From assembly GCA_947457565.1 (NCBI GenBank), contig CANGWH010000015.1, forward strand, positions 1 to 35,728: a stretch of 35,728 bases of DNA, given 5' to 3'. Positions 8,581-16,220 of this stretch are shown piece after piece. Position numbers and translations under genes: made by a program. The notes below the pieces were generated by a model. It saw nothing but the letters and a program-made list of their open reading frames with translations. It ran no database searches and was not told the DNA's origin. Positions within the stretch are counted from its first letter, which is position 1. Every line of letters begins with the position of its first letter. This stretch comes from Flavobacteriales bacterium (lineage in GTDB: Bacteria > Bacteroidota > Bacteroidia > NS11-12g > UBA955).

Positions 8581-9207
8581 ATGAAAACGCAAATAATTCA
8601 AGGGCTGGTGCAGTATTCCTTAGAACACGAGAAATCACCGGTTAACGTCTTTCAGTTAGCGAAGTTTTTATCTATTTCTGAACAAGAGTTCTACCAATAC
8701 TTTAGTTCCATTGAAGCTGTAGAAGAGGCCGTTCTAACCCAAACTTGGATGGAAGCATTTCATGCGTTAACATCCGATAGCACATTCTCTGGATTCACAC
8801 TCAAAGAAAAGCTTATTTCACTTCATTTTGGTTGGGTTGAAAAGTTGCTAGCTATTAGAAGTTATTTACAGTGGAGGATGAAAGATTGGAAGAATCCAAT
8901 GTCTGGGCTAACCTTGCTTAAGTCGTTAAGATCCCAAGTTTTAAACGATTTAGATTCGTTATTTAAAATTGCTCAACAAAATGGAGAGATTCCCGACAGG
9001 AAATTCTTGGATAAACTCTCCAATGAAGCTATTTGGATGAACACGGCATTTATCCTGCATTTTTGGTTAAATGATACCAGTAAAGAATTTGAAAAAACCG
9101 ATGCATGTATCGAAAAATCTATTGGATTAACCATGGATTTAATTGGAAGAAATACGTTGGATCAAGCCATTGATTTCGGTAAATTTTTATTTCAACAATC
9201 CAAATGA
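8581..9207 (+). CDS. TetR/AcrR-family transcriptional regulator
   Basis: The 208-residue product has the all-helical layout of TetR proteins. An N-terminal helix-turn-helix covers about residues 5-55 (VNVFQLAKFLSISEQEFYQYF, read in two parts: the first helices, then the recognition helix with the typical FYQYF in place of the common LYYHF). It is followed by IEAVEEAVLTQTW and a helical ligand or dimer domain rich in Trp. The gene overlaps the next one by 4 bp (ATGA), so translation of the kinase-like protein is coupled to it. This regulator plus ABC1-kinase pairing implies shared control. The effector is unknown. The candidate operator lies just upstream. Confidence 0.82.
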   Translation: MKTQIIQGLVQYSLEHEKSPVNVFQLAKFLSISEQEFYQYFSSIEAVEEAVLTQTWMEAFHALTSDSTFSGFTLKEKLISLHFGWVEKLLAIRSYLQWRMKDWKNPMSGLTLLKSLRSQVLNDLDSLFKIAQQNGEIPDRKFLDKLSNEAIWMNTAFILHFWLNDTSKEFEKTDACIEKSIGLTMDLIGRNTLDQAIDFGKFLFQQSK

Positions 9208-10538
9208 CAACACCAACCCAGGATAAAATTCCAACCGGTAAGGTTGAACGTGCGTTGAAGTTAGTAGGTACGGGTGCAAAAATTGGAACTAATTATTTAA
9301 AATACTACACAAAAAAGACACTCTCAGGAGTAGATAACAAAGAAGAGTTGCATAACAGCAACGCGGAAGATATTTATGATTCGTTGAGTCAACTTAAAGG
9401 CAGTGCGTTAAAAGTGGCGCAAATGTTAAGCATGGATAAAAATCTGCTGCCACGTGCGTACACGCAACAATTTGCCTTAAGTCAGTACTCAGCACCGCCT
9501 ATGTCAGCGCCATTGGTTATTCGTACATTTCAACGGTCCAATGGGAAATCACCCCAAGAAATATTTGATGAATTTTCTTTGCAAAGTAGCGCCGCGGCTA
9601 GTATTGGTCAGGTGCATAAGGCGAGAATAGGGGAACACTGGTTTGCCGTCAAAATCCAATATCCTGGAATAGCCGATTCAATACAAAGTGATTTACGATT
9701 GGTTAAGCCGATGGCGAATGCGATGTTTGGACTGAGTGAAAAGGAAATGAAAAAATATTTCCAAGAAGTAGAGGAAAAATTATTGGAAGAAACCAATTAC
9801 ACGCTGGAATTAAAGCGCTCCAATGAAATGTCGCAACAATGTAAACATTTACCCAATATCATATTTCCGCAATATTATCCTGAGTATAGCTCATCTAAAG
9901 TGTTGGTTATGGACTGGATGCAAGGCCTTCATTTGAAGGAATTTTTAGACACCAACCCTAGCCAAGAAGTAAAAAATAAAATCGCCCAAGCTCTTTGGGA
10001 TTTTTACGAATTTCAACTACATCATCTAAAAGCCATACACGCTGATCCGCACCCCGGTAATTTTTTGTTTCAACCGGATGGTAGGGTAGGGATTATCGAT
10101 TTTGGATGTATTAAAGAAGTTCCAGAAGATTTTTATTTACATTATTTTCCATTACTAATTCCAGTAATTAGAAACAACGAAAATGTTGTAGATAAGCTAA
10201 TGTCTACCATTGAAATTGTATTTCCTGCAGATTCTATGGAAATTAAAAAGCAACTCACGGATGCATTTTTAGCAATGACGGCTTTGTTAAGCAGACCTTT
10301 CGAGTCATCAACATTTCATTTTACAATGGATTTTATCGACTCAATCTATGCTAAAGGGGAAGAAATTTATCAAATTCCAGAGGTAAAAAAGCCTACACAA
10401 CCTCGAGGAAGTAAACATGCCTTATATGTAAATAGAACCTATTTTGGTATTTATTCCATGATGGCCGATTTAAATGCTGAAATTAATACAGCACCCAAAG
10501 ATTGGTCTGATAAGCTTAAAAATTATTGGAATTGTTAA
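9204..10538 (+). CDS. ABC1/UbiB (AarF)-family atypical kinase-like ATPase
   Basis: UbiB-family proteins are atypical protein-kinase-like ATPases linked to isoprenoid quinone or lipid metabolism. In 444 residues the family hallmarks are visible: the KxGQ-type motif as KVAQ (70-73, Ala replacing Gly), the Ala-rich nucleotide loop SAAASIGQVH (119-128), the lysine in AVKIQYPG (Lys140), the catalytic loop HADPHPGN (269-276) and the metal-binding DFG (289-291). No transmembrane helices are obvious at the C-terminus, unlike E. coli UbiB. The gene starts inside the TetR stop (ATGA overlap). Menaquinone metabolism is a plausible field of action but not shown. A strong hairpin follows the gene. Confidence 0.9.
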   Translation: MTTPTQDKIPTGKVERALKLVGTGAKIGTNYLKYYTKKTLSGVDNKEELHNSNAEDIYDSLSQLKGSALKVAQMLSMDKNLLPRAYTQQFALSQYSAPPMSAPLVIRTFQRSNGKSPQEIFDEFSLQSSAAASIGQVHKARIGEHWFAVKIQYPGIADSIQSDLRLVKPMANAMFGLSEKEMKKYFQEVEEKLLEETNYTLELKRSNEMSQQCKHLPNIIFPQYYPEYSSSKVLVMDWMQGLHLKEFLDTNPSQEVKNKIAQALWDFYEFQLHHLKAIHADPHPGNFLFQPDGRVGIIDFGCIKEVPEDFYLHYFPLLIPVIRNNENVVDKLMSTIEIVFPADSMEIKKQLTDAFLAMTALLSRPFESSTFHFTMDFIDSIYAKGEEIYQIPEVKKPTQPRGSKHALYVNRTYFGIYSMMADLNAEINTAPKDWSDKLKNYWNC

Positions 10539-10552
10539 CGGAGCTGGTTTAT

Positions 10553-10589
10553 TTCTCAGTGAGTGTTACAGTGTAACATTCACTGAGAA
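10553..10589. terminator. 17-bp inverted repeat spanning the convergent gene ends (possible bidirectional terminator)
   Basis: Arms 10553-10569 and 10573-10589 pair over 17 positions with one G-U mismatch and a 3-nt loop (core CTCAGTGAGTGTTAC / GTAACATTCACTGAG). It lies 14 bp after the ABC1-kinase stop and overlaps the last eight codons of the TonB receptor on the other strand. No T-run follows on either strand. It could halt transcription from both sides, block 3' exonucleases, or be one copy of a dispersed palindrome. Confidence 0.6.
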
Positions 10590-12884
10590 TAATATGGAGC
10601 GAGCATCCGAAGGCATTAAACCTGGTCCAGGATAACCACCCGCTCTTCGGGTGAAATATCGCTCATTGGTGAGGTTATTGATAGTGGCTTTAAATCGGAT
10701 TGATTTATTAAACTGGTAAGTTGCGTTTAAATCCCAAATTGAGTAAGCGGGGATTAGTCCGTTTTGCCCATTGCTACTTGCTACCACTGTATTTTGTGCA
10801 TCGGTAAAAACATCGCTTACATAACTGTACTGAATTCCAATTTTCAAATGTCTGTCCATTTGCTTCATGCTGTTGATTAACACTGAACTACCAGCCCTAA
10901 TAATCCATTCTGGCGCATTTTCAACACGATTATTTTTTAAGCTGGACGAAACCATTTTACCGTCGCTGCCTTTTACACTAATTAAAAAGTCTTGATAGCG
11001 AGCATCGTTGTATGCTGCAGAGACGAAAACAGGGAAATAGAATTTTGAGTTTTTCTTAGCTCTACGAATTACATCGGCGTCCACCACTAGTTCAGCACCT
11101 TTACTTACACTGCTGCCTACATTTGTTTTTAGGGAATATGATGTACCTTGATCATCGTATTGAGTTAAACGGCCGGGTCTATTATTGTATTGAAGCCGAT
11201 AGATACTTCCATCGATGTATAGCCAATTGCCAAATCTTCCTCGTACCCCTAAATCGCTATTAAATCCAGTAGCATCCTTCATGTTTGCATCCACCACTTC
11301 AATACCAGGAGTAGCTTGCATATCGGAGAATAAAATGGGTCTGTAGGCTTGAGTAATATTGCCGTACATTTCCAGTCCGTTCTTGAAATGATATTCTGAA
11401 GCAATTCCACCAATTAAGAAACTGCGACTTATTGGAGTAGAAACAACATTTACGGCTTCCCCCACACTGTTAAAACTCAATCTTCCATTAACCTCTGATT
11501 GTATATTTTCTGCTCTTACACCGGGAATTAGAGTAAAACTCTTACCAATTCTTATTACCTGTTCTGCAAACCATGCGTAATTAATGGTATTAAAATATAG
11601 TTCCGTAGGGAATTGATTAAACTGATTATCAAAATTAGCATCCGCACCTACTGAACCTATTCCTTTTTGGAAACGCTGAGTTTCGCTATTAAATGCTCTA
11701 ATTCCAGTACTTAATGTCTGTTTAGATCCAGCTATTGTATAGTTAATTAAGTAGGAGGCTTCAATGCCTAAATTTTTATATTTATCGATGGCTAAATCGC
11801 GAGCATTATAATTTCCAGTTAATTTGTTTATAGTATCCTTGGTAGTAATACCATGCATGAATCCCACACTGCTTCTTACCGCTTGCATTCCGAAGGCTTG
11901 CAATTGTAAACGCTGATCTTTATTGATTTCTAATAGATATTTAATATTGCCAGTTTGCCATGGCGTTGAAAACCAGTTTCTATCCCGCAAACTCTGTTGT
12001 GAATTTGCCGAAAACTGGGCTTCGTTTAATCCGCCCGGTTGTTGTGACAACATGTTGTAACGCGTATATTCGGCAGTAATTTGGGATTTCTCCGTTATTC
12101 GATAGGTGATTGATCCAAAATATGTTTGGGTATTGTATTGTGAGTTGGCTCTCCAACCATCGGCCTTTCTTGTATCAACAAAAGCAAAATAATTTACTTT
12201 GCCTTGTTTACCGCCTAACGATAAATAGCTATTGGTCATTCCAAAACTGCCGAGGGTTTGATTCGCCTCTATTTGTAAAGGTTTTCTAAGGTCGGCACCA
12301 TCTTTCATGATGTAATTAATCATTCCACCAAATTGAGAGCCGTATTGCAACGATCCGGCTCCGCGGATAAGTTGAATACGCTGTACCGCTTGCATAGGTG
12401 GATTATAATAGGCCTCGGGATAACCGTACGGATCCGAAGAAATATCGGCACCGTTTTGTCGTACATTAAATTCCCAGCTGCGATTTGGACTCAACCCGCG
12501 AGTGGCAATACCAATCTGAATACCTGAACCGTCGCTTTCCCAAACATGGATGCCAGGAACTTTGGCCATGATTTGTCGCATGTTGTTATTTACTACCACA
12601 GTATTGAGTTCTTCAACTACCACCAAACTGTTTTTTTTGCCGGCATTGATTTTTGTACCAACTACTTCCGGCAACATTAAAATATCTCGTTTTTCTCCTC
12701 TACCAACCAAGGTAATCTCAGGCAAATATTCAATGTGTAAGGCGCTATCGTTATGTATTATACTCTTGTCTTTTAATTTGGGATATTGAGCAATTAGAAT
12801 TTCAGTCAAAAAAATAGACAATAGCAGTAGTAGTCCAGATTTTATTTCACTTGGGAAAGGATAACAGAAACTGTTTTTTCTCAT
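10566..12884 (-). CDS. TonB-dependent outer membrane receptor (FecA-like)
   Basis: This is a ligand-gated outer-membrane transporter energised by TonB. The 772-residue product begins with a signal peptide (hydrophobic stretch about 16-31, cleavage near IAQ). A plug domain follows (about 55-190), with MRQIMAKVPGIHVWE, GIATRGLSPNRSWEFNVRQNG (read as two segments), VQRIQLIRGAGSLQYG and FGGMINYIMKDG. The rest is a long beta-barrel with typical segments such as YRPILFSDM, NLTNERYFTRRAGGYPGPG and a terminal strand ILFSVNVTL. It lacks the carboxypeptidase-like N-terminal domain of SusC types, so a metal-chelate or siderophore substrate is more likely than a glycan; that is inference. Two tandem palindromes cover its promoter, which fits metal-dependent repression. 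Confidence 0.93.
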   Translation of the reverse strand: MRKNSFCYPFPSEIKSGLLLLLSIFLTEILIAQYPKLKDKSIIHNDSALHIEYLPEITLVGRGEKRDILMLPEVVGTKINAGKKNSLVVVEELNTVVVNNNMRQIMAKVPGIHVWESDGSGIQIGIATRGLSPNRSWEFNVRQNGADISSDPYGYPEAYYNPPMQAVQRIQLIRGAGSLQYGSQFGGMINYIMKDGADLRKPLQIEANQTLGSFGMTNSYLSLGGKQGKVNYFAFVDTRKADGWRANSQYNTQTYFGSITYRITEKSQITAEYTRYNMLSQQPGGLNEAQFSANSQQSLRDRNWFSTPWQTGNIKYLLEINKDQRLQLQAFGMQAVRSSVGFMHGITTKDTINKLTGNYNARDLAIDKYKNLGIEASYLINYTIAGSKQTLSTGIRAFNSETQRFQKGIGSVGADANFDNQFNQFPTELYFNTINYAWFAEQVIRIGKSFTLIPGVRAENIQSEVNGRLSFNSVGEAVNVVSTPISRSFLIGGIASEYHFKNGLEMYGNITQAYRPILFSDMQATPGIEVVDANMKDATGFNSDLGVRGRFGNWLYIDGSIYRLQYNNRPGRLTQYDDQGTSYSLKTNVGSSVSKGAELVVDADVIRRAKKNSKFYFPVFVSAAYNDARYQDFLISVKGSDGKMVSSSLKNNRVENAPEWIIRAGSSVLINSMKQMDRHLKIGIQYSYVSDVFTDAQNTVVASSNGQNGLIPAYSIWDLNATYQFNKSIRFKATINNLTNERYFTRRAGGYPGPGLMPSDARSILFSVNVTL

Positions 12885-12892
12885 AGCCGATG

Positions 12893-12924
12893 CAAATATA
12901 GGTGTTATTTAGAACGGTTACAAA
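12893..12924 (-). promoter_or_regulatory. Promoter of the TonB-dependent receptor gene
   Basis: On the minus strand, a -33 TTTG (12921-12924) is separated by 20 bp from a perfect -7 TATATTTG (12893-12900). The ATG at 12884 is only 8 nt further, so the transcript should have almost no leader. Confidence 0.8.
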
Positions 12925-12946
12925 TAAAGTTTAGAACTGTTCTAAA
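12908..12946. promoter_or_regulatory. Two tandem 17-bp palindromic operators over the TonB-receptor promoter
   Basis: Site 1 (12930-12946) is the perfect palindrome TTTAGAAC-T-GTTCTAAA. Site 2 (12908-12924) is TTTAGAAC-G-GTTACAAA, which differs at 2 of 8 positions in one arm. Their centres are 22 bp apart, about two helical turns, and site 2 covers the -33 element and part of the spacer. A repressor dimer on each site would block RNA polymerase. An iron-responsive regulator (Fur or DtxR type) is the likely binder, inferred from the receptor gene. Confidence 0.7.
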
Positions 12947-12961
12947 TAACTATGATATTTA

Positions 12962-14134
12962 TCATGTTGTATAGGCCCTGCCTTTCCAAATGGTTTTTAT
13001 TGGTAGAATGAAAAAAACGGCCGTTGAAAGTGTAATTAATTGAATGAATGGTTCATAGCATATAAGTTTCCACAACGGTGGGCAGGGTGATTGTATATTG
13101 AAATAGATTCTTTTTATCTGTAAACTTTGAAAAAACCACTTTAGAAAAAATAGCAACCCAATCAAAAGAGCACTGGTTTGAGAAATTTTACATACCAACA
13201 AAAGGAATAAAATTAGCGGTATCAATACATGGTATCCTCCGAAAATTCCAAACAATACCCACCAATACCAAGGAAGTTCTTTTCCTCCACTTAACCAACG
13301 TTTTCGTTGATGTAATAAGGGAATAAACCCTTTAGTTTCTGCGGAATAAGCAACTACACCTGGATGCATAACATTGCTCCAACCATAGCCCTTTCCGCAT
13401 ACTTCGCTATATAATTTATAATCTTCTGTAATACTAAATTGGATTTTACTATATCCACCTGTAGCCCAATAGGCTTCTTTTGAAATAATCATATTATTGC
13501 CAACGGCTGTAGCCGGCACGCCAGCATACGAAATAATATTGAGCAAACCCATGAAATAACTCCAATCAATTTCCTGTAACCATCCCCAAGTATTGGGCGA
13601 TTTTACTAATGTTATTCCACTACAAACACCAATGATTTTATTGCTGCCGCCATTGGAGGAATCTGCTTTTTTCCATAAACTTCGCAGCATGGTTTTTGCC
13701 CAATTGGGGTTTACCCAAACATCGGCATCCGTTATTAGGTAATAATCCGCATCGGCATGAATATCCAATTGAGCCATTACTCTAGCTTTGGCTTTTAATC
13801 CATCATTTTTATCTTGAATATCAATGAGTTGTATTTGTGGGTGAAGGTTTGCCAGTTGTAGAACAACTTCTCTGGTGTTATCGATACTTTGGTCGTTTCC
13901 AACAAGAATTTGCATCTTTGCTACCGGATAATCCATCGCTAATAAGGAAGTTAAACAACGTTTTATTGTTGCTTCTTCATCTCGAGCTGCTACCCAAATA
14001 CTGATTTTTGGCCATTCACTGGGTTCATCGGATAGTACGGTCTTATAACCATACAAATACAGCAATTGAGTAAGTTGCACGAGTAAGTAGAATCCGCCAA
14101 CGATACCAAACAACCAGAGTATTATACCAACCAT
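12962..14134 (-). CDS. Membrane-bound family 2 glycosyltransferase
   Basis: This is a processive-type GT2 enzyme with one N-terminal membrane helix (about 3-25), a cytoplasmic GT-A domain, and about three C-terminal membrane helices (about 288-380). Motifs seen: VAARDEEATI (48-57), GND (79-81), the metal- and sugar-binding DAD (136-138), TED (236-238) and QRKRW (276-280, the Q/RxxRW type found in cellulose, chitin and poly-GlcNAc synthases). It follows the polysaccharide deacetylase by 13 bp on the same strand, so they form an operon. The pair recalls NodC-NodB and PgaC-PgaB, where one enzyme makes a GlcNAc polymer and the other deacetylates it. The sugar is not proven by sequence. Confidence 0.9.
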   Translation of the reverse strand: MVGIILWLFGIVGGFYLLVQLTQLLYLYGYKTVLSDEPSEWPKISIWVAARDEEATIKRCLTSLLAMDYPVAKMQILVGNDQSIDNTREVVLQLANLHPQIQLIDIQDKNDGLKAKARVMAQLDIHADADYYLITDADVWVNPNWAKTMLRSLWKKADSSNGGSNKIIGVCSGITLVKSPNTWGWLQEIDWSYFMGLLNIISYAGVPATAVGNNMIISKEAYWATGGYSKIQFSITEDYKLYSEVCGKGYGWSNVMHPGVVAYSAETKGFIPLLHQRKRWLSGGKELPWYWWVLFGIFGGYHVLIPLILFLLLVCKISQTSALLIGLLFFLKWFFQSLQIKRIYFNIQSPCPPLWKLICYEPFIQLITLSTAVFFILPIKTIWKGRAYTT

Positions 14135-14819: not shown

Positions 14820-14865
14820 TGAACAAAGTTCTTATTTTTTCTCAACCTTACCGAATTTATATTGT

Positions 14866-14873
14866 TAATTTTG
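14866..14873 (+). promoter_or_regulatory. Probable -7 promoter element for kynurenine 3-monooxygenase
   Basis: TAATTTTG matches TAnnTTTG exactly and ends only 6 nt before the ATG at 14880, so transcription would start at or next to the start codon. No strong -33 element is visible. Confidence 0.5.
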
Positions 14874-14879
14874 CAACAC

Positions 14880-16220
14880 ATGGGAGAAAAAATCACTTTA
14901 GTAGGCGGCGGCTTGGCCGGGAGTTTATTGTCGATCTATTTAGCAAAACGTGGTTACGATGTTCATTTGTATGAACGTAGGCAAGATATGAGAGATGGAA
15001 AGTACGAAGGTGGTAGAAGTATTAACTTGGCATTAAGTTTACGCGGGATTACGGCATTGGAGCGCGTAGGTTTAGACCGAGATGTTTTAAATATTTCTAT
15101 TCCTATGGCCGGTAGGATGATGCATGATGCAAAAGGCAACACAGCCTATCAACCATACGGAAAAGAGGGTCAGAATATTTACTCAGTTTCTAGATCGCAA
15201 CTTAATGTTAGATTGTTGCAGTTGGCCGATAAATATCCAAATATTACCATGTATTTTAACCATAAATGCGTGGAAGCAGATTTAAAAACCAACGAAACAG
15301 TCTTCCAAAACCAAGCGGGAGAACTGGTTAAAGATAAGGCCGATGTAGTTATTGCTACCGATGGAGCTTTTTCAGCAATAAGGCAAGCTATGATGCACCA
15401 ACCTAGATTTTCTTATTCCCAGACTTACGAAAATTATGGATATAAAGAATTGGAAATTGTACCAGATGCAAACGGTAAATTTCAATTAGACGAAAACTGC
15501 TTGCATATTTGGCCTCGTAAGAGTTTTATGATGATCGCCTTGCCCAATCCTGGTGGGAATTTCACCTGTACGCTGTTTATGCCATTTGATGGAAATCCAG
15601 GGATTGATCAATTGAAAACGGCGGAAGAAATCACAGCATTTTTTAACGAATATTTTGCCGATGCAATGCCGTTAATGCCCAATTTAATAGAGGATTATCA
15701 AAATAATCCAACAGGAATGTTAGTAACGGTTCGTTGCTACCCATGGGCAAAAAACAAGGTGGCTCTATTGGGCGATGCGGCTCATGCGGTGGTTCCATTT
15801 TATGGACAAGGTATGAATTGTTCGTTTGAAGATTGTTTGGTGTTAGATGATTTAATAGGAGCGGGAAGGCCCAATTTACCATGGAACGAAATTTTGCATC
15901 AGTACCAAGAAAAACGAAAGCCCAATGCGGACGCAATCGCCAACTTAGCACTGCAGAACTTTGTAGAAATGCGCGATTTGGTTGGAAGTCCTGAATTCTT
16001 GCATCGTAAAAAGATTGAACATGCGCTAAGCACGCAGTATCCAGATAAATTCACTTCCCAATACGAAAGAACTACATTCTCAACCCGAGATTATGCGGAA
16101 GCTTGGGAATTTGGAGGTAAAAACGATAAAATATTGGATGCAATTATCCAGAATGGATGGGAATCAAAATTGGAAGATTCGTCCTTTATTAATGAACTTT
16201 TGGACGAAATGCTTAGCTAG
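14880..16220 (+). CDS. kmo: Kynurenine 3-monooxygenase
   Basis: This FAD-dependent, NADPH-using hydroxylase converts L-kynurenine to 3-hydroxykynurenine, on the route from tryptophan towards quinolinate and NAD or towards degradation. The 446-residue product has the Rossmann motif VGGGLAGS (8-15), YERR at the end of the second strand, the KMO-characteristic GRSINLALSLRG (45-56), an internal DG motif (ATDGAFSAIR, 159-168) and the second FAD motif LLGDAAHAVVPFYGQGMN (296-313). It lacks the C-terminal membrane helix of eukaryotic KMO, as usual for bacteria. ATG 14880 is preferred over an upstream TTG because the flavin-binding fold starts there. Other kynurenine-pathway genes are not nearby. Confidence 0.95.
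   Translation: MGEKITLVGGGLAGSLLSIYLAKRGYDVHLYERRQDMRDGKYEGGRSINLALSLRGITALERVGLDRDVLNISIPMAGRMMHDAKGNTAYQPYGKEGQNIYSVSRSQLNVRLLQLADKYPNITMYFNHKCVEADLKTNETVFQNQAGELVKDKADVVIATDGAFSAIRQAMMHQPRFSYSQTYENYGYKELEIVPDANGKFQLDENCLHIWPRKSFMMIALPNPGGNFTCTLFMPFDGNPGIDQLKTAEEITAFFNEYFADAMPLMPNLIEDYQNNPTGMLVTVRCYPWAKNKVALLGDAAHAVVPFYGQGMNCSFEDCLVLDDLIGAGRPNLPWNEILHQYQEKRKPNADAIANLALQNFVEMRDLVGSPEFLHRKKIEHALSTQYPDKFTSQYERTTFSTRDYAEAWEFGGKNDKILDAIIQNGWESKLEDSSFINELLDEMLS

Follow-up and report, generated by a model that had tools for sequence, protein, structure and literature searches.

The classical Fur box of Escherichia coli is a 7-1-7 palindrome, TGATAATnATTATCA, odd-centred and A+T-rich, that overlaps promoters and marks iron uptake targets. 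Within the Bacteroidota, PgFur of Porphyromonas gingivalis belongs to the Fur family and binds the promoter of hmu (haem uptake), but it is reported to be non-canonical and not to bind the E. coli box (PMC6613475). The closest described counterpart to the motif treated here is the Fur box of Riemerella anatipestifer, ATTTAGAATTATTCTAAAT, for which our literature search found two studies and no others (PMC5609570, PMC10986502). Fur binding was reported there for four promoters chosen for gel shifts, and the shifted targets include a receptor annotated as Fe3+-dicitrate type (PMC5609570); the rhuB promoter, carrying ATTTAGAATTATCCTAAAT, was reported to shift in an Mn2+-dependent manner (PMC10986502). 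Several operators per promoter are described for Helicobacter pylori Fur, whose holo form is reported to make tetramers and to compact DNA at such promoters (PMC5007355).

Against this background we examined a receptor promoter in the genome of a Flavobacteriales bacterium. The window, meaning the whole stretch of DNA analysed, is 35,728 nucleotides long; its relevant features are listed here together with one further gene of the same genome.

8581 to 9207, plus strand: TetR-type regulator (TetR_C_23, Pfam), rejected below as the binder
9204 to 10538, plus strand: ABC1/UbiB-like kinase (Pfam), convergent with the receptor gene
10566 to 12884, minus strand: TonB-dependent receptor of 772 amino acids, plug and barrel (Pfam, NCBIfam, PDB)
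12893 to 12900, minus strand: predicted -7 element TATATTTG, the box being set at -12 to -5 (PMC9723704)
12907 to 12925, minus strand: core Fur-box-like site, ATTTGTAACCGTTCTAAAT, predicted to lie at -37 to -19 from the transcription start
12921 to 12924, minus strand: predicted -33 element TTTG, within the left half of the core site
12929 to 12947, minus strand: upstream Fur-box-like site, ATTTAGAACAGTTCTAAAC, predicted to lie at -59 to -41
12962 to 14134, minus strand: family 2 glycosyltransferase (Pfam), ending just upstream of the operators
Locus L200 of the same genome, 889 to 1461, minus strand: nfu, with a site near 1501

For the receptor, Pfam lists plug and barrel only; an N-terminal STN signalling domain, as expected under FecI/FecR-type sigma control, is not listed, and that kind of control was rejected. 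Its match to the NCBIfam TonB-siderophore model falls below the cut-off. The best solved relative in the PDB is FecA, which the Fe3+-dicitrate label of the Riemerella target also suits. The TetR_C_23 gene and then the ABC1/UbiB-like kinase gene (8581-10538) run convergent with the receptor gene, and between kinase and receptor a long inverted repeat, CTCAGTGAGTGTTACA/GTGTAACATTCACTGAG at 10556-10588, spans the receptor stop codon and looks like a two-way terminator. On the other side, a small inverted repeat, ATGATA-TT-TATCAT (12952-12965), adjoins the operators and lies over the glycosyltransferase stop codon. Further along, an FAD monooxygenase gene (14862-16220, plus strand) has VioC of violacein synthesis as its best NCBIfam match, far below the cut-off.

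A first-pass annotation of the window had described two tandem palindromic operators at this promoter, and the geometry that it gave stands: TTTAGAACTGTTCTAAA is found at 12930-12946 and TTTAGAACGGTTACAAA at 12908-12924, 22 bp apart centre to centre. The outer 12-bp inverted repeat that it pointed out is also present (GTTATTTAGAAC at 12904-12915, GTTCTAAATAAC at 12939-12950), an automatic consequence of a palindrome that is present twice with similar flanks. Read along the minus strand, the order is GTTATTTAGAACAGTTCTAAAC TT TATTTGTAACCGTTCTAAATAAC ACC TATATTTG CATCGGCT ATG. The 19-bp palindrome framework is the same as that published for R. anatipestifer, as are the -7/-33 promoter type and the TonB-receptor targets (PMC5609570, PMC10986502). 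Measured against the Riemerella box, the window sites have 3 and 4 mismatches at 18 specified positions and orthologous sites 1-4; part of the window's difference is the replacement of GAAT by GAAC in all four half-sites (GAAC/GTTC against GAAT/ATTC), and the window has two phased sites, whereas the published Riemerella table gives one per gene. The E. coli box shares with the sites the odd centre, the A+T-rich palindrome, the promoter overlap and the iron uptake targets, but the half-site compared here is TTAGAAT and that of E. coli TGATAAT.

The -7 box was placed as mapped in Flavobacterium psychrophilum, at -12 to -5 (PMC9723704). Transcription is then predicted to start at 12888, with a leader of about 4 bases; TTTG falls at -36 to -33, and 20 bases separate it from TATATTTG. 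As had been claimed, the second palindrome covers the -33 TTTG and the spacer of the TonB-receptor promoter.

Conservation of the sites was examined in orthologous receptor promoters (18 loci, with L013 dropped at a contig end and L027 left out), giving a set of 17 that includes the window's own. In 15 of the 17, a site matches ATTTAGAATnATTCTAAAT with no more than 3 mismatches, and the remaining two have a 4-mismatch site; at the same threshold the reversed motif gave 0/17 and shuffled promoters 2/3400. A pair of sites, each with 4 mismatches or fewer, occurs in 12/17. By contrast, more distant receptors (24-39% identity) have a site in 1 of 10 promoters. Positions relative to the -7 box were analysed for 44 sites, omitting L019, L027, L038, L041 and L227 (no usable -7 box, a truncated start, a distant receptor or a near duplicate) and three 5-mismatch overlaps (L017, L029). 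Fifteen loci have a site 24-25 bases upstream of the box, and 12 have one 46-47 bases upstream; in 12 loci a site begins 12 to 17 bases downstream of the box's first base, across the predicted transcription start, and the other sites lie at -57/-58 (four) and -32 (one). The window occupies the -24/-25 and -46/-47 places. In related genera, one of the two, overlapping the promoter or upstream, is retained, and the second is found at a different position; the second site therefore seems to have shifted during evolution while two-site control persisted.

Sites at the core place, 24-25 bases before the -7 box, have TTTG in their left half in 15/15 cases, against 4/29 for sites elsewhere (Fisher 1.7e-8, a value that overstates independence, the sequences being related). 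Judged by this alignment, the core half-site doubles as the predicted -33 element. Such double duty would explain why the second palindrome, GTTACAAA, is imperfect. If the -33 reading is true, a core site in which TTTGTAAC became TTTAGAAC would make a weaker promoter while keeping or raising Fur binding.

The consensus of the relatives, ATTTAGAATnATTCTAAAT, is identical to the Fur box of R. anatipestifer. With at most 1 mismatch, it has 26 sites in 22 of 57 related genomes, against 1 site for the reversed control. Judged by coordinates, feoAB follows immediately after 12 of the 26 sites and a TonB receptor gene comes after 7 (in G033 as inferred from contig ends that overlap); HmuY-like or haem oxygenase genes stand downstream of four more, and multihaem cytochrome genes downstream of two. 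Downstream genes were assigned for 25 of the 26 sites, the second HmuY-like gene and the second cytochrome by eye. Among feoB promoters (30 loci, one dropped where no G1 motif was found), 14/29 match the motif with no more than 3 mismatches, against 0/29 for the reversed motif, and several lack a site. In the feoAB promoters of six genomes (L148-L153), the box's right half leads, by eye, into TAAATTTG, so that the -7 element is contained in the box. The motif thus stands upstream of other iron genes in the relatives: feoAB, haem oxygenase, HmuY-like genes and nfu.

The genome of the window has a further good site before nfu (Fe-S assembly), 46 bases upstream of the nfu -7 box. At most 4 mismatches being allowed, 16/29 nfu promoters have a site (30 loci, L271 dropped) and the reversed motif 0/29; 12 of the 16 are at -46/-47. 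Across the family's nfu loci (L250-L270), these 12 include the window genome's own site. Lying upstream of -33, the nfu box may act in a different way from the boxes at the receptor. Upstream of fur, which was located in 18 of 30 loci (the window's genome being among the 12 missed), no box with at most 4 mismatches was found in those 18, and one locus has a 5-mismatch site.

A strong feoB match (E below 1e-40) is present in 53/57 genomes. In the window's genome, whose assembly is 93% complete, feoB was not found; the best FeoB_N matches are weak and fall in a 447-amino-acid two-domain protein that we take to be the GTPase Der. A genome of the same genus (G001) has feoAB with a Fur box and no close relative of the window receptor. 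With feoB apparently missing, the receptor may be the main iron door of this organism.

We consider it very probable, on these comparisons, that the palindromes form a tandem pair of Fur operators and that the receptor is repressed through them under iron-replete conditions. The earlier suggestion that an iron regulator acts through two operators over a TonB-receptor promoter is borne out by the comparative evidence and by the published Fur box. Of the two candidates proposed, Fur, which is encoded in 57/57 genomes, is to be preferred over DtxR, which is missing from genomes that keep the sites. Fur in the window's genome (locus L102, 1429-1923) is a protein of 165 amino acids with no internal stop (PF01475, 103 bits); its NCBIfam matches are all below the cut-off and do not distinguish Fur from PerR.

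With ample iron, dimers of Fe-Fur would occupy both sites, and the bound protein would cover the -33 element and the spacer, excluding RNA polymerase; when iron is short, Fur would depart and the receptor would be made. The 22-bp spacing is about two helical turns, which would put both dimers on one DNA face, and a spacing of 21-22 bp fits side-by-side dimers arranged in this way. A Fur tetramer or loop at the window sites, by analogy with H. pylori, is possible; the operators reported there span 195 bp (PMC5007355), as compared with two sites 22 bp apart in the window. We infer Fur binding, repression, the direction of the response and the carriage of an iron compound by the receptor. That cargo is likely an iron chelate, judged from the control of the gene and not from the receptor sequence.

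Could the linked TetR-type regulator (8581-9207) bind the palindromes instead, and control the receptor in response to the receptor's ligand? TetR operators are often odd-centred palindromes, as these are, and tetR and the receptor gene are 1.3-1.5 kb apart in 8 of the 17 genomes listed. However, the linked type occurs in 27/57 genomes and the operator fails to follow it: G012, G030 and G020 keep the sites without any tetR match, and in 6 further site-keeping genomes tetR is on a separate contig. Nor does the motif recur at tetR promoters; it is present in 1 of 27, although TetR proteins usually control their own genes. The motif also stands before feoAB, haem oxygenase and HmuY-like genes, and we regard a TetR operator as improbable.

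A DtxR/MntR-family metalloregulator is a very improbable binder. The window's genome does encode a PF02742 protein, and TTTAG...CTAAA resembles the boxes of the DtxR type, but such a protein is present in only 39/57 genomes; the sites are retained in G016, G029, G030, G018, G026, G031 and G034, where it is missing. Since sites are kept without DtxR or without TetR, Fur is left as the common factor.

A role of the repeats as hairpins in RNA, such as ending the message of the upstream glycosyltransferase, is highly improbable. Read-through RNA (12885-12965, minus strand) does fold at -18.9 kcal/mol with a z of -5.1, but this fold follows from the presence of two copies of one palindrome, and a single hairpin is weak (z -0.15). 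Moreover, no terminator-like site was found, the receptor's own message would begin downstream of the repeats, and the relatives also have sites standing alone.

An exact 8-1-8 palindrome occurs once in the window, and 30 shuffled windows gave a mean of 0.77 and a maximum of 5, so that a lone palindrome of this kind is not significant by itself. The pair is unusual: with at most 3 mismatches the window has 3 matches, a number reached by 1 of 100 shuffles (mean 0.41), the third match (26591) falling within a helicase gene. At the level of sequence comparison, the decisive evidence beyond chance is conservation in the orthologous promoters. A chance palindrome without function is a negligible prospect, for although about 0.8 lone 8-1-8 palindromes are expected per window, the sites are conserved across genera at fixed positions.

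The Fur reading does not extend to the literal motif of the window as the mark of a regulon. A scan of the genome for TTAGAACNGTTCTAA with at most 2 mismatches gave 11 places where the reversed control gave 23, and hence no over-representation. The literal GAACNGTTC motif has 9 further places in the genome, of which the 4 checked are intragenic or before a gene without an iron-uptake role; the broader GAAY form is mildly over-represented (53 against 33, at most 3 mismatches). The regulon foreseen in the first-pass annotation is therefore real in the family, with the consensus GAATnATTC, but GAACnGTTC as such defines none in this genome. A species-specific change in Fur specificity was rejected as the reason for GAAC: by eye, G000 and its close relatives share one recognition helix, VSRATVYNTLDLL, and GAAT is retained at the nfu site of this genome.

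Control of a receptor promoter by Fur, as proposed here, would be of an ordinary kind in an unusually clear layout; the sharing of letters between operator and promoter is a clear and partly new view. Because the letters are shared, deviations from the box can be read as promoter constraint and not as weak binding. With low confidence, we put forward a more general rule for this Bacteroidota order, in which Fur boxes and core promoter elements would be fused and phased: at -33 TTTG in receptor promoters and at -7 TAnnTTTG in some feoAB promoters, with extra boxes only near -58 to -40 and near 0 to +18. Under this rule the nfu box would lie only upstream, where Fur may not simply block but, for example, recruit or release RNA polymerase. 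The present comparison extends the Riemerella Fur box to uncultured freshwater Bacteroidota and offers a practical search pattern for iron regulons in them.
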